From: Aminobacterium mobile DSM 12262
GTDB lineage: Bacteria > Synergistota > Synergistia > Synergistales > Aminobacteriaceae
DNA: 64,000 nucleotides
Assembly: GCF_000526395.1 (NCBI RefSeq)
Contig: NZ_JAFZ01000001.1
Location: 682,001 to 746,000, forward strand
Reading direction: 5' to 3'
In this document: positions 87-15,702 of the stretch, one piece after another
How positions within the stretch are numbered: the first letter of the stretch is position 1
Layout of the letters: the number at the start of each line of letters is the position of its first letter
Position numbers and translations under genes: made by a program
Notes under the pieces: generated by a model
Database searches by the model: none
Seen by the model: only the letters and a program-made list of their open reading frames with translations
What the model was told of the DNA's origin: nothing

Positions 87-893
87 ATGAGCGTAACTAT
101 TCATTCAACAGCTCTTGTGTCTCCTCAGGCTGAAGTGGAAGATGGAGTTGTTATTGGACCTTATTGCATAGTTGGAGATCGTGTTCACATAGGTAGGGAA
201 ACAGTTCTCGAAGCATACGTACGTATTTTAGATTACGTTGAACTCGGCGCAGAATGTCATGTTTTTGAAAATGCGATTCTTGGCAGAGAACCCCAGGATC
301 ATGGTTTTAAAGGGGAAGAATCGTGGGTGCGCATAGGAAACAGCGTTACATTAAGAGAAAATGTTACAATTCACCGAGCCAGCGGAGAAGGGGCGGTGAC
401 GTCGGTGGGGGACGGCTGTTTTATTATGGAAGGTGTTCATTTAGGGCATAATGTGCACATAGGGAAAGGTGTCACCATAGCGAACAAAGCTGGGCTGGCT
501 GGGTATGTTTCTATAGATGATGGAACAGTTATTGGCGGCATAGCAGGCATACATCAGTTTGTTCGGGTTGGACGCTACTGCATGATCGGAGGACTTTCCA
601 AAATTGTCAAGGATGTGCCTCCTTTTCTTCTTGTCGATGGGCATCCTGCCTCTGTGCATGGTATCAATCAAGTAGGATTAAAAAGGGCGGGTTTTTCTTC
701 TCATGATCGAATGGAAATAAAACGTCTTTATCATAATCTGTATCATTCAGGCCTTCCCTTCAGATCTGCTGCGGAAAACATAGAAACAGAAAACAACCCT
801 AACGCCGCAGAAGTTGTTGCTTTTATTCGTCAGGCCAAAAGAGGTATCAGTCCCTGGCCCAGAGAAATAAGGAGAGAAGACGATGACCATTAA
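87..893 (+). CDS. lpxA: UDP-N-acetylglucosamine acyltransferase LpxA
   Basis: Catalyses the first step of lipid A synthesis in the cytoplasm, transferring a 3-hydroxyacyl chain from ACP to the 3-OH of UDP-GlcNAc. The 268-residue product has the family length. Residues 1-190 are a left-handed beta-helix of hexapeptide repeats (for example VVIGPYCIVGDRVHIG near 21-36). The segment VHLGHNVHIG places H118 and H121 where E. coli LpxA has H122 and the catalytic H125. The KDVPPFLLVDGHPA segment and the alpha-helical C-terminus with GLKRAGFS also match. ATG start with GGAGG upstream. The 3' end overlaps kdsC by 11 bases, so the two are probably coupled. Confidence 0.96.
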   Translation: MSVTIHSTALVSPQAEVEDGVVIGPYCIVGDRVHIGRETVLEAYVRILDYVELGAECHVFENAILGREPQDHGFKGEESWVRIGNSVTLRENVTIHRASGEGAVTSVGDGCFIMEGVHLGHNVHIGKGVTIANKAGLAGYVSIDDGTVIGGIAGIHQFVRVGRYCMIGGLSKIVKDVPPFLLVDGHPASVHGINQVGLKRAGFSSHDRMEIKRLYHNLYHSGLPFRSAAENIETENNPNAAEVVAFIRQAKRGISPWPREIRREDDDH

Positions 894-1380
894 GCTTCTT
901 GCTCTGGATGTAGATGGTACGCTTACTGATGGTGGCGTCTATCTCGATGGGCGAGGCAGCGAGTTTAAACGCTTTGATATCCAGGACGGCATGGGAATTG
1001 CGAGGTTGCGTAAAAGCGGTGTCCATATAGCTATTATTAGTGGCCGTTATTCTTCTGCTACAGAAGGCCGTGCCCGAGAGCTTGGTATCGATCTCATTTA
1101 TAACGGAGTCCCCAATAAATATGAAACTCTTCTTGCCGTAGCGAAAATGCTGGATCTTCTCCCCTCAGAAATAGCCTATGCCGGAGATGATGTAAATGAT
1201 GTTGAATGCATTACCTGGGCAGGTCTAGGCTGTGCTGTGGCTAATGGAGTAGAAGAAGCTAAAAAAGCAGCAGATTTTGTTACCGCTGCATCAGGGGGGC
1301 GCGGGGCTGTAAGAGAAATAGCAGAATATATATTAAGAAACAACAAAATAGAGGAAACAGGGTGTGGCTCTGGTGCGTAG
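883..1380 (+). CDS. kdsC: 3-deoxy-D-manno-octulosonate 8-phosphate phosphatase KdsC
   Basis: A HAD-superfamily phosphatase that converts Kdo-8-phosphate to Kdo, the third step of Kdo synthesis. The 165-residue protein is the compact, cap-less size typical of KdsC. The nucleophile motif DVDGTLTDG lies at residues 9-17 (D9 nucleophile, D11 acid/base). IISGR follows as motif II and AGDDVNDVE near residue 100 supplies the Mg-binding acidic residues. It overlaps lpxA upstream and the permease gene downstream. kdsA, kdsD and kdsB are all in the same operon, which supports the assignment over a generic HAD phosphatase. Confidence 0.95.
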   Translation: MTIKLLALDVDGTLTDGGVYLDGRGSEFKRFDIQDGMGIARLRKSGVHIAIISGRYSSATEGRARELGIDLIYNGVPNKYETLLAVAKMLDLLPSEIAYAGDDVNDVECITWAGLGCAVANGVEEAKKAADFVTAASGGRGAVREIAEYILRNNKIEETGCGSGA

Positions 1381-5478: not shown

Positions 5479-7235
5479 AGAGTAAAAAACACATCTATTT
5501 TCGTTTGCTAGGTTATACGAAGCCTTATTTTGGGAGACTTTTGGCGGCTCTGGGCTGTATGGTGCTGTCTTCCGTCTTTACAGTGATACCTCCATGGCTT
5601 CTGAAAAACGTAGTAGATGATGTGCTTATCGCTAAAAAAATGATGGTCTTGAATGTGCTTTCCATAGGGCTCGTATTCCTCTTTATTGGCAAGGGGATAG
5701 CCTCTTATGGCCACCAGTACCTCATGAATTGGGTGGGGCAGCGTATTGTTATGGATTTGCGTGTGCGTCTTTATGATCATATGCAGAGAATGTCTTTACG
5801 ATATATATATGGGAAACGCATTGGAGAACTTATGTCGCGTATTACCAACGATGTGAATGTACTCCAGAATATGGTGACGACTGTAATAGTAGACTTGGTA
5901 GTGCAAGGTATTACTTTTTTAGGAATGTTAGGGTTCCTTATTTATATTAACTGGCGTCTTACACTGGTTACCTTCGCTGTTCTCCCTGTAACTGTATGGA
6001 TTCTTGACCATGCCTCTAAAAAACTTCGTATTGTGGGGCATAATATCCAGGAGGAACTGGCCCGGCTCTCTGCCACTGTACAGGAGGCTTTATCTGCCAT
6101 TCGCATCGTCAGGTCTTTTGTAACAGAAGATTTGGAATCCAATAGATTTAAAGATCAAAACAAGGCTAATTTTAAAGCATTAATGCATGGAGTTCAGGTG
6201 CAATCTGCTCTTTCAGGTATTATTGAAGTTATACTTATTGCCGCTCTAGCCTTGATTTTGTGGCTTGGAGGCCGCGATGTAATTTATGGAGCCTTGACCC
6301 CTGGCGAGCTTATTGCTTTTTTAGGCTATCTTGGTTTTTTAGTTCAACCTATTCGCGTCTTTACCAGAGTTGTAAGCAATATGCAGCTTGGCCTTGCCGC
6401 GTCAGAACGTATATTTGCAATTCTCGACACTCCTTGTGAGATCCATTCGCCCAAAAACCCTGTCCCTCTCGGCACGTTGAAAGGGGCAGTGACAATGGAC
6501 GATGTTTGGTTTGCATATGTAGACGAACAGTGGGTTTTGAAAGGAGTGTCTCTTGAGGCTAAACCTGGGGAACGGGTTGCTATTGTAGGTTCTACTGGTG
6601 GAGGGAAATCTACTCTTATGGACCTCATTCCTCGATTTTATGATCCTCAGCGAGGATCTGTTTCTCTTGATGGACACAATGTGAAAAGCCTTGATCTCGT
6701 AGAGCTTCGGAAACAGATAGGTATTGTTCCTCAGGATCCTGTTTTGATGAAAGGGAGCTTGGCTTTCAATATCGCCTATGGTTTCCCAGATGCCACAATG
6801 GAAGATATTATTCGAGCTGCTCATATTGCGGGCATTCATGACTTTATCCAATCTCTCCCTGAAGGGTATGAAACGGAAGTGGGAGAGAGAGGAGTAACCC
6901 TTAGCGGTGGACAGCGTCAGCGTGTGGCTATCGCTCGTGCCATTATTCGTAACCCCCGCATTCTCATTCTAGATGAAGCTACTTCTTCTTTGGATGTAGC
7001 GGTGGAAAGCCAGGTACAGGAAGCTATGGAAAAGGCAATGGAAGGCAGAACATCTTTTGTGATCGCTCATCGTCTTTCCACTATTCGCAATGCCGATACC
7101 ATTCTTGTCTTGAATGAGGGGAAAATTTCAGAGAGTGGTTCTCACGAAGAACTGCTTGTAAGAGGTGGATTGTATCGTCATCTCTACGATCTTCAGTTTG
7201 GTGGTGGAGAAACAGGTTATGAAAGTACTCCGTAG
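5475..7235 (+). CDS. msbA: Lipid A flippase MsbA, ABC exporter
   Basis: Half-transporter of about 586 residues that flips lipid A-core across the inner membrane. The first ~310 residues hold six membrane helices (ABC type-1 exporter). The ATPase half has Walker A GSTGGGKST, Q-loop GIVPQDP, signature [15 protein letters not shown], Walker B ILILDEATSSLD and switch AHRLSTIRNAD. I chose ATG 5475 because it forms an ATGA overlap with the previous stop; GTG 5463 and TTG 5469 are in frame, and TTG 5469 has better spacing to GGAAAGG. Its place between lpxB and lpxK supports MsbA over a drug exporter. Confidence 0.9.
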   Translation: MKSKKHIYFRLLGYTKPYFGRLLAALGCMVLSSVFTVIPPWLLKNVVDDVLIAKKMMVLNVLSIGLVFLFIGKGIASYGHQYLMNWVGQRIVMDLRVRLYDHMQRMSLRYIYGKRIGELMSRITNDVNVLQNMVTTVIVDLVVQGITFLGMLGFLIYINWRLTLVTFAVLPVTVWILDHASKKLRIVGHNIQEELARLSATVQEALSAIRIVRSFVTEDLESNRFKDQNKANFKALMHGVQVQSALSGIIEVILIAALALILWLGGRDVIYGALTPGELIAFLGYLGFLVQPIRVFTRVVSNMQLGLAASERIFAILDTPCEIHSPKNPVPLGTLKGAVTMDDVWFAYVDEQWVLKGVSLEAKPGERVAIVGSTGGGKSTLMDLIPRFYDPQRGSVSLDGHNVKSLDLVELRKQIGIVPQDPVLMKGSLAFNIAYGFPDATMEDIIRAAHIAGIHDFIQSLPEGYETEVGERGVTLSGGQRQRVAIARAIIRNPRILILDEATSSLDVAVESQVQEAMEKAMEGRTSFVIAHRLSTIRNADTILVLNEGKISESGSHEELLVRGGLYRHLYDLQFGGGETGYESTP

Positions 7236-9483
7236 TTATCTTGATTGGGCGCGAGGGGATCGCCGAGTAAGTCCGTGGTCTCTCCTCATCCCCTTTGCTG
7301 GCATTTCTCACAGCCTGGTAGCAGCTCGTAACTACGCCTTTGACCACGGTCTTTTGGCGAGCTACGAGCCTTCTATTCCTGTTGTGAGTGTGGGTAATAT
7401 TACCCTTGGGGGTACCAATAAAACTCCTTTTGTGGAGATGCTCTCTCGCCATTTCTTGGGAATGGGGATCCGGGTGGGTATTGTAAGTCGTGGATATGGA
7501 GGGCGAACCAACGATGAACCTGTAATTGTCCAGGGTTTTTCTGCTAATCGAGATATAGTAGGAGATGAACCGCTCCTTTTGGCTTCCCGGCTTTCAAATG
7601 TACCAGTAGCTGTTTCTCGAGATCGTCTCAAAGACGTGGAAGCTCTAAAAAAACATAATGTAGAGCTTATTGTGGCAGATGATGCCTTTCAGCACCGTCG
7701 GTTGGGCAGGGATGTGGATATTGTTCTGGTGGATGCGTGTTGTCCTTTTGGAAATGGGCGCCTTATTCCTGCCGGTATATTGAGAGAGCCTCCCAAAGCT
7801 TTAAAGCGAGCCCATATCGTAGTTATTACCAAAGCAGATCAGGTATCGAGTGAAGAACTTCGCGCTGTGCGAGAAAAACTTTTGAAATATGTCCCGGCTT
7901 CTCGTTTGTTTACATCGCGTCTTGAACTTAAAACATGGTCTTTTTGGCAAGGGAGCTGGAAAGATATTTCTGGGTTTGAAGCTCGAGATTTACCCATAGT
8001 CGCCTTTTCAGCTATAGGAAGTCCAGCAAGCTTTAGAAGGACCTTGGAGCAAGCAGGGCTTAACGTATTAAAAGAACTTCGCTTTAAAGATCATCATCGT
8101 TTTGATGAAAGAGACATGAATAGGTTAGGTTCTCTGCGCAAAGAATTGGGAGCTGCCTACCTCGTGTGCACAGAAAAAGACGTATATAATTTGCCTGAAT
8201 GGGATGGAGACTGTCCGTTGCTCGTACCTATTATTTCTACAGTGATAGATGAGGAGCCTCGATTTTGGCGTATTATAGCCCAAACGCTGCAACCTCGCCT
8301 GGTGGTGGCTTCCAACGGGTATGGGGAGGATGCGATGGGAGCGTTGCTCGCAGAAAAGATCCGCAATCGTTTCCCTGGTGCTCTCATCTCTTCTTTTCCT
8401 ATAGTAGGGAAGGGCGAGCAATATCGTAATGCTGGTTTTATAGTGGATTCTTCTCCGTCTGAATCTCCTTCTGGCGGTGTCATAAAATATCATCTTTCTG
8501 ATTTATGGCGAGATCTGCGCTCTGGGTTGGTACGGCATATTTTTTCTCAATTTAAGGCTTGGCGGCGGTTGAGAGGTACTGTTCGGACACCTCTTTGTGT
8601 AGGAGATGTCTATCTCCTACTTCACACTTTATGGGGGCAGGGACAGCTTCCCTTGCTTGTTGCCACAGCAAAAACAGTTTACCTTAGTGGACATTGGCGA
8701 CTTGAGCGTTTTCTCATAAAACATCGATGTAGACGAGTATGGACTCGGGACGCAGAGACAGCTAAAGAGTTATCCCGTTCCCGAGCCAATGCAGTTTTTG
8801 CAGGGAATCCAATAATGGATCTTACCTGTGATAATAATAGTGGATCCTTCCAATGGCCAGAACATAAAGGAGTGAAGGTCCTTCTTTTACCTGGAAGCCG
8901 GCAACGTGCCTATCAGGATATGAAAATGCTTCTTGACGCAGCGTTGCTCCTTCAGGCAAACACTCCATGTTCTTTTGTGGCCGTTATAGCTCCTTCTTTG
9001 GATGTGAGAGAGCTTGTGCAGGGAGCTCCTGGCTGGAAAGTTATTCAAAATGGCGCAGGCATAGAAAGAGATGGAATACAGGTGTTTTTCCATTTCGGCT
9101 CCCTTGTTTCAGTGGCTAATAACGCCCATATCCTTATAGGCCTCGGTGGAACCGCTAATCAGGTATGTGCAGGCCTGGGAGTTCCAGTGGTTTCTATTCG
9201 AGAGAAGGGGAAACTCGTACAGAAAAAACTATTGGGGAACTCTGAAGTCCTTGTGGCGCCTGAACCGAAAGCTTTGGCAGATGCTGCTTACGCTATCCTT
9301 ACGGATAAGGAATTACGACAAGCGATGGCGGAAGAGGGGCGTCGGCGTCTCGGTGGCCCTGGTGCCCTTGATAATGTAGTGAACTACGTTGCAAAAGAAT
9401 TAGGTTGGGATTTGCGTTGCCGAATATATGAAAAAGTGTTTTGCTTTGGCGTTTCCCATTCAGATGGGACGATTGAGGATTAA
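7219..9483 (+). CDS. lpxK: Fusion: LpxK tetraacyldisaccharide 4'-kinase plus C-terminal LpxB-like glycosyltransferase domain
   Basis: A 754-residue fusion. Residues 1-350 are LpxK, which phosphorylates the 4' position of the lipid A disaccharide: N-terminal membrane-association segment, P-loop region near 60-70, [15 protein letters not shown] at 151-164 (family DDGFQH) and TEKDVYNLP at 318-326. The P-loop reads GGTNKT where the family has GGTGKT. Residues ~358-754 form a second GT-B domain starting [21 protein letters not shown], with [12 protein letters not shown] near 545 and [18 protein letters not shown] near 645. It resembles the lipid-A-disaccharide synthase-related family I recall from cyanobacteria and Deinococcus. 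ATG 7219 overlaps msbA by 17 bases; an upstream in-frame TTG at 7165 lies deep in msbA and is unlikely. LpxK alone is normally ~320-350 residues. Confidence 0.9.
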
Positions 9484-9500: not shown

Positions 9501-10358
9501 ATGATACAAAAAGTACCTGTTGGAAATTTTACGGTCGGGGGCGACTCCCTCGTCATTATTGCCGGACCATGTTCCCTTGAGAGTCTCGAATTAGGGTTGG
9601 AAGTAGGGACAAAAGCTAAAGAGGTATGCGATAAACTCCATTTGAATTATATCTTCAAGGCTTCTTTCGATAAGGCCAATCGTACCTCAATCCATAGTTA
9701 CCGCGGACCTGGTATGGAGGAAGGGCTTGAACAATTGGCTGAGATAAAACGTCGTTTAGGTGTTCCCATTCTCACCGATATTCACGAGTCGTGGCAAGCA
9801 GAACCAGTGGCGGAGGTGGCAGATATTTTACAGATTCCAGCCTTTCTTTGCCGTCAGACAGATTTGCTCGTGGCGGCCGCTGAAACGGGGCATCCTCTTC
9901 ATATAAAAAAAGCTCAGTTCCTTGCTCCCCAGGATATGGCACAAGTAGTGGAGAAGTGTCGTGAAGCGAACAATCCTCACATTATCCTTTGCGAGCGGGG
10001 AACAACCATGGGATACAATCAATTAGTAGTGGATATGCGATCCCTTGTACTCATGCGCAGCCTAGGCTGCGCAGTTGTTTTTGACGCGACTCATAGTGTG
10101 CAAATGCCTGGGGGGAAAGGTTCTTCCAGTGGTGGTGACCGCCGTTTTGCCCTTCCTTTGGCCAGAGCTGCTGCTGCGATAGGCATAGACGGTCTTTTCA
10201 TTGAAACTCATCCTAACCCCGCTCAAGCAAAGAGTGATGGTCCGAACATGGTCCCTCTCCATAAGCTGGAGTATTTTTTGCAACAGATTAGCGAACTATG
10301 GTATACCGTAGAACAGGGAATGGGAAAAACAGATATAGATTGGGCAGAGGAGGCGTAG
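9501..10358 (+). CDS. kdsA: 3-deoxy-8-phosphooctulonate synthase KdsA
   Basis: Condenses phosphoenolpyruvate with D-arabinose 5-phosphate to give Kdo-8-phosphate. The 285-residue TIM-barrel enzyme shows [10 protein letters not shown] at 19-28, [16 protein letters not shown] near 55, [11 protein letters not shown] near 135 and [19 protein letters not shown] near 160. C24 in the GPC motif is the residue that separates metal-dependent KdsA (Cys) from the metal-independent type (Asn), so this one should need a divalent metal. ATG start with GGGG upstream, 17 bases after the fusion gene. The downstream gene makes its substrate. Confidence 0.96.
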
Positions 10359-10360
10359 CC

Positions 10361-11368
10361 ATGGTGTGTCTTCCTCGTGAGCGAGCCGGTATAGATCTTG
10401 ACGATGCATGTCTCTTGCAAATCGGGCGTAAGGTACTGCAACAAGAAGCCCAGGAATTAAACAAGGCAGCTGGGCGTCTGGGAAGCGAGCTCGTAAAAGC
10501 AGCAAGGCTGATACATGATTGTAAAGGACGTCTCGTTGTTATAGGGATGGGTAAGTCAGGTCTCATTGGGCGGAAAATAGCTGCAACTCTTGCTTCTCTT
10601 GGAACCCCTTCCTTCTTTCTCCACGCAGCAGAGGGATCACATGGCGATCTGGGCATGGTTTGCAGAGAAGATGTGGGGCTCTTCATCAGCAATAGTGGCT
10701 GTACCCATGAAGTTGTGGCGTTGCTTCCTTTTTTCCGTCGTCTTGGCGCTCCAGTGGTTTCCATCACAGGGGGGCTCTCTTCTCCTTTAGCGAAAAACTC
10801 GGATATAGTTCTTGATTCAAGCGTGGAGAGGGAGGCAGACCCTTTGAACTTGGCTCCAACGAGCAGCACCACGTTACAGCTAGCCATTGGAGATGCATTG
10901 GCTGGTATGGTTACGGAGCTTCGCGGTCTCGGCGAAGACGATTTCGCCCTCTTCCATCCTGGCGGAGCCTTGGGGCGCCGGCTTCTTACAAAAATAGAGG
11001 ACGTTATGGGAGCGGGAGAAAAATTACCTGTCGTCAGAAACCACGTAAAAGTAAGTGACGCCCTTTTCGAAATGACGAGCAAGGGGTATGGTGCCACTAT
11101 TATTGTGAATGAGAATGGAAAATTAGAGGGGATATTTACGGATGGAGACCTCAGACGTCTCATAGCTCGGCGAGGGGTAGAGTGCCTTACAGATGTTGTA
11201 GCTGGGGCTATGACGCGAAATCCTATTACTATAGGGCCTGATCGGCTAGCTGCCGAAGCTGTTCGTATTATGGAGGAAAAAGAAATTTCTGTAATAGTTG
11301 TGGTTAAGGATGATAAGCCTATAGGGATAGTTCACCTTCATGAAATTTTAAAGGCGGGGGTGGCATAA
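10361..11368 (+). CDS. kdsD: D-arabinose-5-phosphate isomerase, KpsF/GutQ/KdsD family
   Basis: Isomerises ribulose 5-phosphate to arabinose 5-phosphate, the sugar used by KdsA. The protein is about 335 residues: an N-terminal SIS sugar-isomerase domain (VVIGMGKSGLIGRKIA near 59-74, FLHAAEGSHGDLGM near 86-99, SNSGCTHEV) and two C-terminal CBS domains (~215-335). The motif SSTTLQLAIGDALA fits the family. I chose ATG 10361, 2 bases after the kdsA stop and behind GAGGAGG; the longer reading frame from 10298 would run far into kdsA. The CBS pair suggests control by a nucleotide-type ligand (inference). Confidence 0.93.
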   Translation: MVCLPRERAGIDLDDACLLQIGRKVLQQEAQELNKAAGRLGSELVKAARLIHDCKGRLVVIGMGKSGLIGRKIAATLASLGTPSFFLHAAEGSHGDLGMVCREDVGLFISNSGCTHEVVALLPFFRRLGAPVVSITGGLSSPLAKNSDIVLDSSVEREADPLNLAPTSSTTLQLAIGDALAGMVTELRGLGEDDFALFHPGGALGRRLLTKIEDVMGAGEKLPVVRNHVKVSDALFEMTSKGYGATIIVNENGKLEGIFTDGDLRRLIARRGVECLTDVVAGAMTRNPITIGPDRLAAEAVRIMEEKEISVIVVVKDDKPIGIVHLHEILKAGVA

Positions 11369-11381
11369 GCTGAACTATAGT

Positions 11382-12620
11382 ATGTACCGAGCCCTAGTGT
11401 CTGCTGCCTACCTCGCAGTGTACCCTTGGTTGGCGAAGAGATACCAGATAGGGCTGTCTGAAAGAAAAGCTCTGTACGCTCCAGAAAAACAAAGGGTGTT
11501 TTCGGAAAGACCTTTATGGGTTCATGCTGTTTCAGTGGGAGAGGTCCAATCGGCGTGGCCTCTTTTAGAAGAGGTTCATACCGATCCGGTTTCCATTCCG
11601 GTAGTGCTTTCGACAACGACGCCTACCGGTCGTGCTATGGCGTATCAACTGACTCCCCATCTCTTTAACACCCATATATACTATCCTTGGGACATCCCTT
11701 GGATTATTAAAAGGGCTCTTGATAATATGAACCCTCGCGCCTATGCGGTAATAGAAACTGAAATATGGCCTAATCTATTGAAGGAACTTGAGAAGAGGCG
11801 TATTCCGGCTTTTCTCGTTAATGGAAGATTCTCTGTGTCTACCTCTGCGAGAGCTAAAAAAAGCGCTCATTTTTGGAGAGATATTTATTCTTGTTTTACC
11901 CGCCTTATGGTTCGTTCTGATAAAGATGCTGACCACCTTCTCTCTCTAGGAGTATCTGCCCATAAGATAGTTGTAACGGGAGATTGCAAAGTAGATGCTC
12001 TTCGTTTGCGCCATAAAGATGTAGATCTTTCTTTTTGGCAGAGCACTCTTGGCACAGAACGTCCGCTTTTTTTGGCAGGGAGTACCCACACTGGTGAGGA
12101 TGAAATAGTGCTCAAGGCGTTTCGCATTGTTCGCGAACGTTTCCCAAAGGCTCGGCTTATTATTGTCCCCCGTCATCCCGAAAGAGCTGCTGATGTAGAG
12201 CGATTAGCTGGGAATGTTGCTCGTACCTGCCGGCTTTCTTCTTTGTCCGAAGGCTGGTCTATCTTAATAGTAGATAAAATAGGAGTTCTTTTTGAATTAT
12301 ATGGTGTTGTTGATAGTGCATTTATAGGAGGAAGCCTCGTCCCTAAAGGTGGACAGAACCTTATGGAGGCTGCTGCCTTTCGAGTGCCGGTGTGTCATGG
12401 CCCTCATATGGAAGATTTCCCTGAAGCGGCAGAAGCGCTGGGTGATCTTAATGTATCTGTAGTTGTCAGGAGTGCAGATGAAATGGCGAAGCGATGGATG
12501 GGAAGCCTCTCGCCATCTCTTAGAGAAACTGTTCAAAAAGGCTCGCGCCTTTATTTTGAACAGGTGGGAGGCGCCGCCCGAGCGTCGTGGAAAGAGATCC
12601 GAGAGGAGATGAGCATATGA
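11382..12620 (+). CDS. waaA: 3-deoxy-D-manno-octulosonic acid transferase WaaA (KdtA)
   Basis: GT30 inner-membrane enzyme that transfers Kdo from CMP-Kdo to the lipid A precursor. The 412-residue protein has a short N-terminal hydrophobic anchor (ALVSAAYLAVYPWLA), then WVHAVSVGEVQSAWPLL near 45-60 with the conserved catalytic-region Glu, AVIETEIWPNLL near 125, FLAGSTHTGEDEIVLKAF near 225, PRHPERA, and the acceptor-end motif FIGGSLVPKGGQNLMEAAAF near 310. ATG at 11382 follows kdsD by 13 bases. Whether it adds one Kdo or two cannot be read from the sequence. Confidence 0.95.
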   Translation: MYRALVSAAYLAVYPWLAKRYQIGLSERKALYAPEKQRVFSERPLWVHAVSVGEVQSAWPLLEEVHTDPVSIPVVLSTTTPTGRAMAYQLTPHLFNTHIYYPWDIPWIIKRALDNMNPRAYAVIETEIWPNLLKELEKRRIPAFLVNGRFSVSTSARAKKSAHFWRDIYSCFTRLMVRSDKDADHLLSLGVSAHKIVVTGDCKVDALRLRHKDVDLSFWQSTLGTERPLFLAGSTHTGEDEIVLKAFRIVRERFPKARLIIVPRHPERAADVERLAGNVARTCRLSSLSEGWSILIVDKIGVLFELYGVVDSAFIGGSLVPKGGQNLMEAAAFRVPVCHGPHMEDFPEAAEALGDLNVSVVVRSADEMAKRWMGSLSPSLRETVQKGSRLYFEQVGGAARASWKEIREEMSI

Positions 12621-13822
12621 ATCTGAACAAGGATCTGTTAAAAAAATTCTACAATAATCTTGATTCGCGCTCTCAAGAGAGTTTAGATGAAGCGGTAGAG
12701 AAGATGATTGCGGTCAAGAAGCAAAATGGCAAAATTGTTGTTGCTACTGGTAGTGGCCCTAATATCCACGAGGGGGTAACTACTCTTATCGCTGAACTTA
12801 TGGATAAAGGCATTATCGATGGAGTGACTACCAGTTCTGCTGTGGTAGGACATGAAATGGCAGGGGCCCTCGATAAAGTCAAAATGTGCAATGCAGCAGA
12901 CCTCGGCTTCGAAGAACGTTTTATGCCGCGTGGCAATGTTTTTGAATTCACGCAGCTTACGGCCGATGCGCTACAACAAATTCGTCAAGAAATGGTGCTT
13001 GATGAACAGCTCCTTGAACAGGGGAATAAAGTTGACGGCCATATAGTTCTTAAAGCTGCTGGTAATATGGCATATCCGATGGGGCTTCGAAATGAAACGA
13101 TAGCGGGAGAAATTTTAACCATATGCCGAGCGTACGGTCTCCCCTTTGAAGTTGTAGCTGGGTGGGGGGCCGATCATCACACCATGATCGGTATTGGAGC
13201 GGAAAAAGGACTTCCAGTACTTGTAAGTATCCCTCAGATGATTGGAAGTGGCCATGTCGGGATGGCTATTGGAGACAGCATTTCTATCTGCGAGCGTTCC
13301 ATGCGTATCGCTCATATGTTGGGAGATGCCGATATCATTATAGAGTCGGCAGTAGCCCTGACCCAGGAAATTCATGACGGCCCCTTTGAATGTTATACAG
13401 GTCACGGCATTTGGTCGTGGTGGAAAGGCCTTCAAACCTATAGCCTTCGAGATAAGACATTGATCCGGATTGACCTCGACGAAAACTTGAGAAAAGCTCA
13501 GGATCTGCAGAAACAAAGTGCCATGATTCAGGAGGCCATCAATAAGGGGCTTCCTAAAACTAAAATATCAAGAATTCCTTTCCGTATGGAAATGTCTGCT
13601 TTTGCCCGACATGAAGGGAGCATTCCCATTATCGGTGATATAGGGCAAGTATGGCCTCTTATGGCGTGGCGAGTTGCCGAGGCTCTCAATATATCCCTCG
13701 ATTTCATGAGCTATTCTCAGGAGACAGAGGAAGGGAAAGCCATGCGCGAGTGGATTGTGAATGAAGTGAAGTTCCTCAATAGGGGAAAGCTTCTCCAGAA
13801 AGCAAAGGAGTATCGACTATAA
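12617..13822 (+). CDS. Conserved protein of unknown function in the Kdo operon (possible deoxyhypusine synthase-like fold)
   Basis: A 401-residue cytoplasmic protein with no signal peptide or membrane segment. I do not recognise a characterised family. Visible blocks are KIVVATGSGPNIHEGVTTLI near 40-59, DGVTTSSAVVGHEMAGAL near 70, EVVAGWGADHHTMIGIGAEKG near 180-200, IGSGHVGMAIGDSISICERS near 212, and HDGPFECYTGHGIWSWW near 260. The glycine-rich turns and His-containing motifs are faintly like deoxyhypusine synthase-type Rossmann proteins; this is weak. The ATG makes an ATGA overlap with waaA and kdsB starts 2 bases after its stop, so it is embedded among Kdo genes. A metabolic or regulatory role in Kdo or LPS synthesis is inference from position only. 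Confidence 0.75.
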   Translation: MNLNKDLLKKFYNNLDSRSQESLDEAVEKMIAVKKQNGKIVVATGSGPNIHEGVTTLIAELMDKGIIDGVTTSSAVVGHEMAGALDKVKMCNAADLGFEERFMPRGNVFEFTQLTADALQQIRQEMVLDEQLLEQGNKVDGHIVLKAAGNMAYPMGLRNETIAGEILTICRAYGLPFEVVAGWGADHHTMIGIGAEKGLPVLVSIPQMIGSGHVGMAIGDSISICERSMRIAHMLGDADIIIESAVALTQEIHDGPFECYTGHGIWSWWKGLQTYSLRDKTLIRIDLDENLRKAQDLQKQSAMIQEAINKGLPKTKISRIPFRMEMSAFARHEGSIPIIGDIGQVWPLMAWRVAEALNISLDFMSYSQETEEGKAMREWIVNEVKFLNRGKLLQKAKEYRL

Positions 13823-13824
13823 CC

Positions 13825-14562
13825 ATGAATATTCTTGGAGTGATTCCAGCACGTTACGGTTCAACCCGTTTGCCAGGGAAACCTCTCGCTGATATTTGCG
13901 GAAAACCTTTGATTCAGCATGTTTATGAACAGGCTTCCCGCGCATCGCTTATAGGTGCTCTTATTGTGGCTACTGATGATGAGAGAATTGTGGAGGCTGT
14001 ACAGGCCTTTAACGGCAATGCAGTACTTACTGGGGCAGATCACCCTAACGGGACGAGCCGAGTGGCGGAAGTGGCTAGAAATATGAATGTAGATCTCGTG
14101 ATCAACATTCAGGGAGATGAGCCCTTGCTTGACCCTCAGATGATTGATGAGGTGGCCGGAGCTCTTATGGAAGATGAAACGGTAGTATCTGCCACCCTGT
14201 GTGCACCTATTACAGACGAGCAGGCTCTCTCTGATCCGAATGTGGTGAAGGTTGTACGGGATAGAAGGGGTTTTGCCTTGTATTTTAGCCGGTCACCTAT
14301 TCCTTATTTCAGAGTTCAAGCATCTCTTCCTGTGTATGAGCATATTGGAATATATGGCTACAGAAAAGATTTTCTCATGAAATATGTAGAGCTTGAGAAT
14401 ACCCCCCTCTCTACTGTAGAGTCTCTTGAACAGCTTAAAATTCTGGAGAATGGCTACAGTATGAAGGTACTAGAGACGAAAGTAACGCATCGCGGTCCGA
14501 GCGTGGACACACCAGAGGATCTAGAGGCTGTTCGTCGCATTATGGGTAAAATAACTCTGTAA
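13825..14562 (+). CDS. kdsB: 3-deoxy-manno-octulosonate cytidylyltransferase KdsB
   Basis: Activates Kdo with CTP to CMP-Kdo, the donor for WaaA. The 245-residue protein starts ILGVIPARYGSTRLPGKPLADICGKPLIQHVYE, the nucleotidyltransferase signature of KdsB. It continues with ATDDERI, TGADHPNGTSRVAEVA, INIQGDEPLLDPQMIDEV and FSRSPIPYFR, all diagnostic of the family. ATG 13825 lies 2 bases after the previous stop. CTP for this reaction is made by PyrG, encoded 16 kb downstream. Confidence 0.97.
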   Translation: MNILGVIPARYGSTRLPGKPLADICGKPLIQHVYEQASRASLIGALIVATDDERIVEAVQAFNGNAVLTGADHPNGTSRVAEVARNMNVDLVINIQGDEPLLDPQMIDEVAGALMEDETVVSATLCAPITDEQALSDPNVVKVVRDRRGFALYFSRSPIPYFRVQASLPVYEHIGIYGYRKDFLMKYVELENTPLSTVESLEQLKILENGYSMKVLETKVTHRGPSVDTPEDLEAVRRIMGKITL

Positions 14563-14574
14563 GGAGGAACGTAT

Positions 14575-15702
14575 ATGTCTCAATCCCCTGAGATGGTCAT
14601 TATCCTCAGTGACGGAATTCGCGGCCATCTTTTTCAAAGCCGAGGGATTGCCGGGTGGCTTGCCAAATATACAGGTGCGGAGATTGTTGAATTTCAAGTC
14701 CCTAAAATCTCAGGATTTATGAAATTTTACCTTTTGAAATTGCAAGGACGACGCCTTCCTTCTATGAACAAAGAAGAGCTGCATTGTTGGTTTGCAAAAT
14801 CGGGGGGGCATTCCCTCGTGGGAGAATGTCAGCTCCATCTTCAAAAAAATAAAGTTGATTCGAGACGCGTTCTTTTTATTTCGGCAGGAAGCGGTGCAGC
14901 GGCTTTTAACGTAGCTCTTTCTAAATATTTGGGGTCAAAAAGCTGTGCCCTTATGACTCCGTCCTTCATAGGTACGGATCCTTTTGATTTTGCAGTAGTG
15001 CCTCTTCATGATAAGCCGAAAGGAGAAGCAAACGTTTTGTCGACTCTTGGTGCCCCTAACTCGATCTTTCCGGAAAAATTATGTGAAGCGTCGAAAGAAC
15101 TGTCTTCCATATATCCTCCAGAATCTCATCGTCGTTGGGCTCTTCTTATTGGTGGCGATGATGCTAATTATTGTATAAGCTCCATATGGATGCACAAAAA
15201 TATTTCACCTATTATCAGGGCAGCTCAAGAAAAAAATATAGATCTTTACATTACTACGTCACGACGAACATCAGCAGAAGCGGAGCAGGCTCTTATTGAA
15301 GTGGCGGGAGAAAGCCCTCAGGTAAAAATGCTTCTTCTTGCGTCCCAAGATCCTATGAATCCTGTTCCTGGCATGATGGGGCTCTGCAATAGGGTATTTT
15401 GTACGGAAGATTCTGTCTCCATGGTTTCAGAGGCTGTAACGGCAGGGCATCGTGTTATATTAATGCGAGTGGAGCATCGACAGGGAATAAAAAAGGTGCT
15501 TCAAACATGTATGAAACCTTTTTATTCGTGGGGTATTTCACGTTTCAATACCCTCTTTGATGCATTGAAAGAAAAAAGGTGTTTAGTAGAGTATTCCGCA
15601 CATTGTCTTGATGAGCTTGATGGTGATTATCAGAGCTCTGTTACTGATTTTAACGAAGCTCGACGTGCCGCTTTGTGGATTATAGAGAGGTGGAAAGAAT
15701 GA
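14575..15702 (+). CDS. ELM1/DUF1022-like putative glycosyltransferase
   Basis: A 375-residue protein that begins VIILSDGIRGHLFQSRGIAGWLAKYTG. The pattern (acidic residue, G-[KI]-x-GH, x-x-Q) is typical of the family named after plant mitochondrial fission protein ELM1. Bacterial members are widespread near LPS genes and are thought to be GT-B type glycosyltransferases. WALLIGGDDANY near 180 and FCTEDSVSMVSEAVTAGHRVILMRV near 275 match the C-terminal nucleotide-sugar half of such enzymes. It follows kdsB by 12 bases with AAGGAGG as ribosome site and overlaps the next glycosyltransferase by 4 bases. A role in LPS core assembly is likely, substrate unknown. Confidence 0.7.
   Translation: MSQSPEMVIILSDGIRGHLFQSRGIAGWLAKYTGAEIVEFQVPKISGFMKFYLLKLQGRRLPSMNKEELHCWFAKSGGHSLVGECQLHLQKNKVDSRRVLFISAGSGAAAFNVALSKYLGSKSCALMTPSFIGTDPFDFAVVPLHDKPKGEANVLSTLGAPNSIFPEKLCEASKELSSIYPPESHRRWALLIGGDDANYCISSIWMHKNISPIIRAAQEKNIDLYITTSRRTSAEAEQALIEVAGESPQVKMLLLASQDPMNPVPGMMGLCNRVFCTEDSVSMVSEAVTAGHRVILMRVEHRQGIKKVLQTCMKPFYSWGISRFNTLFDALKEKRCLVEYSAHCLDELDGDYQSSVTDFNEARRAALWIIERWKE

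Follow-up and report, generated by a model that had tools for sequence, protein, structure and literature searches.

The metabolism of Kdo, a target for antibacterials, is generally taken to be fully described. Breakdown of Kdo would need a lyase, a D-arabinose isomerase and a ribulokinase, by which Kdo would yield pyruvate and D-arabinose and the latter would be converted to ribulose. In Shewanella, KdnA and KdnB together with a Kdo8N-specific KdsB constitute a route to 8-amino-Kdo. In the literature searched, nothing useful was found on KdnA/KdnB or on Kdo-catabolic operons. For the inner-core heptose genes, the one paper that our search on GSU2086 found places this Geobacter gene between hldE and gmhA; disrupting any of the three carries a similar fitness cost on electrodes (PMC5585712).

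Here we describe a gene, designated X, in a 64,000-nucleotide stretch of Aminobacterium mobile DSM 12262 (Synergistota), referred to below as the window. X is a real and conserved gene without a family name, and its linkage to kdsB extends over several phyla; a literature search found no paper on its family. Its likely role is a Kdo-related step that extends beyond LPS.

Results

X reads from ATG at 12617 to TAA at 13820-13822 and encodes 401 residues (Table 1). Its start codon shares the tetranucleotide ATGA with the stop codon of waaA (TGA, 12618-12620), and the ATG of kdsB (13825) lies 2 bases 3′ of the X stop. The first-pass annotation had reported this reading frame, its coupling to waaA and its spacing from kdsB, and the coordinates were confirmed. 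It had also placed X among Kdo and LPS genes, in agreement with the curated models, which identified an LpxK fusion, KdsA, KdsD, WaaA and KdsB, with an ELM1-family gene next. The true start of kdsD is probably downstream of 10298. The fusion, a 756-aa protein encoded upstream at 7213-9483, joins LpxK to a C-terminal lipid-A-disaccharide-synthase-related domain (TIGR03492). X as a replacement for KdsC was considered and rejected, given that KdsC is present in the window and that X has a predicted DHS (deoxyhypusine synthase) fold, not a HAD-type fold.

Table 1. Coordinates of X, its conserved segments and the Kdo genes of the window
Feature	Position	Strand	Remarks
X, 401-aa protein of predicted DHS fold, undescribed family	12617..13822	+	candidate Kdo/CMP-Kdo-metabolising enzyme, KdsB partner
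GSGPN-HEG loop of X, invariant	12749..12775	+	X residues 45-53, after first strand
IESA--L-QE-HDGPFE--TGHG segment of X, invariant	13340..13408	+	X residues 242-264
waaA, Kdo transferase	11382..12620	+	curated models; 4-nt overlap with X
kdsB, CMP-Kdo synthetase	13825..14562	+	constant X partner; X-linked KdsB clade
kdsA, Kdo-8-phosphate synthase	9501..10358	+	curated model
kdsD, arabinose-5-phosphate isomerase with CBS domains	10298..11368	+	curated models
kdsC, Kdo-8-phosphate phosphatase	889..1344	+	profile match
ELM1-family protein (PF06258)	14575..15702	+	next gene, conserved in Synergistota operons

Full-length homologues, 48-84% identical to X, occur in Synergistota, Atribacterota, Spirochaetes, Bacteroidales, Acidaminococcaceae, KSB1, Verrucomicrobiales, Desulfobacteraceae and Hydrogenedentota. 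X and its counterpart in a congener share 84% protein identity, and their differences at the three codon positions (60/27/217 over 401 codons) indicate strong purifying selection, which, together with the full-length homologues, argues that X is a genuine gene and not a chance open reading frame. An alignment of 37 relatives contains ~90 invariant positions, many of them polar. The ordered Gly/His motifs remarked upon in the first-pass annotation are borne out by this alignment, in which GSGPN-HEG, K-AGN--YP, IESA--L-QE-HDGPFE--TGHG, PFRMEMS-FAR and GD-G are invariant. The GSGPN-HEG loop, which sits in the only stretch of X that sequence methods can align with DHS, is likely a dinucleotide-binding loop, and the conservation of the IESA--L-QE-HDGPFE--TGHG segment suggests that it is probably an active-site segment.

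No Pfam or NCBIfam family matched X over its cut-off, and the sub-cut-off matches to DS and GSU2086 fell within the first 90 residues. The Pfam DS model (PF01916) gave 20.7 bits against a cut-off of 27, TIGR00321 gave 23.3 bits against 304, and TIGR00300, which describes the nickel-pincer-nucleotide (NPN)-dependent ornithine cyclodeaminase, gave 17.2 bits against 410.8. Weak matches to DS and to the ArgZ-like C-terminal Rossmann domain recurred in 36-37 of the 37 X members, and PF21570 was matched weakly by all 37. Sequence searches of the PDB with X returned no relative, and a profile alignment of X with human DHS stopped at the N-terminus without further extension. The W-G-K lysine motif of DHS is not conserved among the 37-38 X members, and X is therefore not filed as a DHS; the invariant lysines of X are K34, K146, K280 and K314.

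The AlphaFold model of X, calculated from the alignment of 37 relatives, is confident, with a pLDDT of 90.2 and a pTM of 0.91. Its best matches in the PDB were DHS (Foldseek E 5e-6) and ArgZ/AgrE. For these matches VIA gave Z ~17 over 213-260 residues. With DHS the match covered 250-260 residues, most of the chain, at ~12% identity, and the model was equally close to the ornithine-cyclodeaminase domain of ArgZ/AgrE and to archaeal 3c2q. X is therefore, according to the predicted model, a separate and new family of the DHS fold. The DHS lead given in the first-pass annotation was thus right at the level of the fold. Resemblance to DHS itself extends over the whole length of the fold and includes the profile match at X residues 21-90, but the identity is low, the scores are below cut-off, the W-G-K lysine motif is not conserved and the genomic context is Kdo, not eIF5A. 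The AgrE/ArgZ domain and the archaeal LOR/SDH-type 3c2q (PF21570, TIGR00300) share with X a Rossmann DHS-like domain (Z ~16-17), whereas X falls below the curated cut-offs, is without the extra domains and occurs in genomes in which nickel-pincer genes are dispensable. By analogy with these enzymes, X likely uses NAD+.

The best named relative of X is GSU2086 (NF052581; E 3e-6 over X residues 7-81), although its model matched X with 27 bits against a cut-off of 250. In a profile comparison, the N-terminal 73 columns of the two families aligned, and AlphaFold and Foldseek predict the DHS fold for GSU2086 too. GSU2086 scored over its cut-off in 120 of the 198 genomes of the phylum searched, and gmhA adjoins its members in most of the Desulfobacterota loci examined (L158-L177). 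Like X, GSU2086 is set in an operon for inner-core LPS sugars, but it is a protein of ~310 aa that has its own C-terminal motifs (GHHEIM) and is accompanied by heptose rather than Kdo genes; gmhA was not found beside X, the neighbours of which are waaA and kdsB.

X is carried by 92 of 188 Synergistota genomes, with kdsB within 200 nt in 48 of these carriers. The other 44 consist of 41 genomes of a gut lineage (rumen genera and Fretibacterium-like), two without linkage information and one Acetomicrobium-like genome (G121) that is described below. Elsewhere, kdsB adjoins X in all 7 Spirochaete, 3 Atribacterota, 1 KSB1 and 1 Hydrogenedentota loci, and in a Desulfobacteraceae genome X follows waaA. 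A profile search of 296 Spirochaetota genomes yielded the seed genome and one fragment only, so X is rare there. The X tree contains a single gut clade composed of Bacteroidales, Acidaminococcaceae and rumen Synergistota, which suggests transfer of X, and in this clade X is unlinked from kdsB. The first-pass annotation had named a majority of homologues outside Kdo operons as an observation that would speak against its proposal; the outcome was mixed, in that most homologues are Kdo-linked but those of the gut clade are separated from kdsB. The rumen Synergistota (L105-L108, L112, L115) keep kdsA-kdsD-kdsB-ELM1, with no KdsC over the family cut-off.

TIGR00466 scores divide the KdsB proteins of Synergistota into a high-scoring type and a divergent type. 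Among good Synergistota genomes with a kdsB match, X was present in 68 of the 74 with high-scoring KdsB (the other 6 have this type but no X) and in 0 of the 38 with divergent KdsB, a strong association rather than independent replication, since the genomes are related and the P value overstates their independence. In the KdsB tree, the X-linked proteins of Spirochaetes and Atribacterota and the high-scoring proteins of Synergistota form one clade (97/96) that stands apart from the proteobacterial, pyrG-linked and divergent KdsBs; the X-linked copies of KSB1 and Hydrogenedentota lie outside it. The catalytic residues K19 and D98 are retained in X-linked KdsB. At residues ~76-79, many X-bearing lineages have NG[ST][SCA]R in KdsB versus the canonical SGT[DE]R, a shift that goes with X in a number of lineages but has exceptions in KSB1, Hydrogenedentota and Bacteroidales.

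Ten X carriers from Spirochaetes and Atribacterota had no KdsA over the cut-off and no KpsC/KpsS, and nine of the ten had no WaaA; all three were missing from the Spirochaete carriers and from most of those in Atribacterota, with the reservation that genes may seem absent from a MAG because the genome is incomplete. The Atribacterota operon has the order LacI, DctP, DctQ, DctM, X, kdsB, YhcH, DapA-family lyase, L-fucose isomerase (FucI) and ribulokinase (AraB). Its lyase-isomerase-ribulokinase set is what Kdo breakdown would need, and Kdo is accordingly the substrate that we infer for it. In most Spirochaete loci X and kdsB are accompanied by an importer of the TRAP or ABC type and by a lyase of the DapA family, and some loci also contain sulfatases. 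In KSB1 and Hydrogenedentota X is found next to BNR proteins, a regulator and an additional kdsB, and another kdsB is located beside pyrG. In G121, which is near-complete, the sole kdsB lies in a TRAP-lyase-FucI-AraB operon; waaA-X-ELM1 is kept in the LPS operon, and kdsA, kdsD and waaA are still present, so the KdsB of the uptake operon should make CMP-Kdo. What stays constant is thus the pairing of X with KdsB and not that of X with LPS. X is a partner of KdsB and not strictly an LPS gene, and the same carriers led us to reject X as an LPS-only gene. A protein of 360-380 aa recurs in the spirochaete X-kdsB uptake operons (L049:4708-5835, L135:11670-12755, L136:13303-14439); the single members that were tested had no Pfam or NCBIfam match.

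Discussion

X travels with KdsB even into genomes that do not make Kdo and in which no Kdo transferase was detected, and it therefore probably carries out an unrecognised step of Kdo or CMP-Kdo metabolism. We propose, with a probability of about 45%, that X is a DHS-fold, NAD-type, redox-neutral enzyme in the short pathway of KdsB, acting on either Kdo or CMP-Kdo. Of the two, CMP-Kdo is the likelier substrate because nine carriers have no other known user of it, although a Kdo transferase of no known kind could be another consumer in spirochaetes. By analogy with DHS and AgrE, X would hold NAD+ tightly, and this NAD+ would act as a transient oxidant of one sugar carbinol, for which C4 would be a chemically sensible position. 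The oxidised sugar would then undergo epimerisation or elimination followed by re-reduction, with no net redox change. Synergistota that bear LPS would thereby obtain a modified (CMP-)Kdo for their envelope, and in Spirochaetes and Atribacterota without Kdo synthesis X would process imported Kdo after KdsB. The use of NAD, the substrate, the position attacked and the kind of reaction are all what we infer from this reasoning. To our knowledge, most LPS bacteria need no X-type enzyme, which counts against the proposal, as do the separation of X from kdsB in the gut clade and the 6 good genomes that have the high-scoring KdsB but no X. The first-pass annotation had suggested an unrecognised Kdo step, a suggestion that gains from the kdsB linkage in several phyla and from the confinement of X, among good Synergistota genomes, to those with one KdsB type, and that loses its restriction to LPS; the regulator that it offered as another option was supported by nothing that we found.

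Given that nine KdsB carriers have no known Kdo transferase, a CMP-Kdo user is missing from them, and X itself might be a transferase that moves Kdo or a derived group from CMP-Kdo to a small molecule or protein. The DHS-fold proteins do include a transferase, as DHS moves a butylamine group, and X overlaps waaA in the window. We consider this explanation unlikely, because the DHS fold is no known glycosyltransferase fold, the carriers that have LPS already possess WaaA and the neighbours of X suggest no acceptor. The idea that X serves sugar-acid catabolism or salvage independently of KdsB, with free Kdo or a similar ulosonate as its substrate and only a secondary place in LPS operons, seems to us equally doubtful. 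Such a role would suit the operons with TRAP, ABC or symporter genes, DapA-family lyase, sialidase-like BNR proteins, sulfatases, FucI and AraB, and the ten genomes without Kdo synthesis. Against it, no gene other than kdsB is a constant neighbour of X in these operons, where KSB1 and Hydrogenedentota even have it as an extra copy, and in Synergistota X sits in operons for de novo Kdo synthesis.

Another scenario, for which the chances appear decidedly slim, is that X is a non-catalytic partner of KdsB or WaaA, serving as a stabiliser, a channel or a regulator. CMP-Kdo is short-lived (~30 min; PMC9587256), and channelling would therefore help; the translational coupling and the adjacency to kdsB would also fit. 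On the other hand, many of the invariant residues of X are polar and of a catalytic type, X of the gut clade is unlinked from kdsB and most KdsBs need no partner. Finally, X might be an NPN enzyme, for instance a sugar-acid epimerase, comparable with the NPN-dependent ornithine cyclodeaminase. X matches TIGR00300 and ArgZ-like models, although below cut-off; kdsB and ELM1 are separated by larC in the Synergistota family f6 (L178:4822-6021, L179-L182, L013, L014, L016-L020); and LarC is present in all Synergistota tested but one, including the genome of the window. LarC was missing, however, from 15 of the 32 X genomes tested, for which incompleteness of MAGs is a possible cause, and it was absent from 8 of 10 Spirochaete and Atribacterota carriers, from KSB1 and from 4 Bacteroidales, in which X is highly conserved. 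An NPN cofactor as a general requirement of X is thus disfavoured, and we regard an NPN enzyme as very improbable.

If X is indeed a conserved additional enzyme tied to KdsB, either the LPS of many anaerobes would contain an unrecorded Kdo variant or there would be a route that processes Kdo via CMP-Kdo. A broader and rather unlikely extension is that X and KdsB form a hitherto unrecognised two-enzyme module in which CMP-Kdo would be made for conversion by an NAD enzyme of the DHS fold and not for glycosyl transfer, that the module would modify LPS Kdo and also process scavenged Kdo without an LPS pathway, and that GSU2086 would be the heptose sister enzyme. The presence of two DHS-fold families beside inner-core sugar genes, X with Kdo and GSU2086 with heptose, suggests that the fold has a use in sugar chemistry that is yet to be explored.

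The parallel with KdnA/KdnB suggests that X, too, may be part of a module that modifies Kdo and includes a KdsB of its own. In one Synergistota genome that has no X (G182), waaA is followed by genes for an Fe-alcohol dehydrogenase and a DegT/DnrJ aminotransferase, which are accompanied by divergent kdsB; presumably, from homology, this set resembles the KdnA/KdnB/KdsB route. The likeness to X is that these homologues occupy its slot after waaA and are paired with their own KdsB type, but as proteins they are unrelated to X. Orthologues of the G182 dehydrogenase adjoin divergent kdsB in several genomes, and some of these (e.g. G039, G042, G108 and G110) keep X too, with the other KdsB type. The KdnB/KdnA-like pair seen at L114:11698-14081 holds the X slot of an LPS operon in X-less Synergistota, with divergent kdsB.
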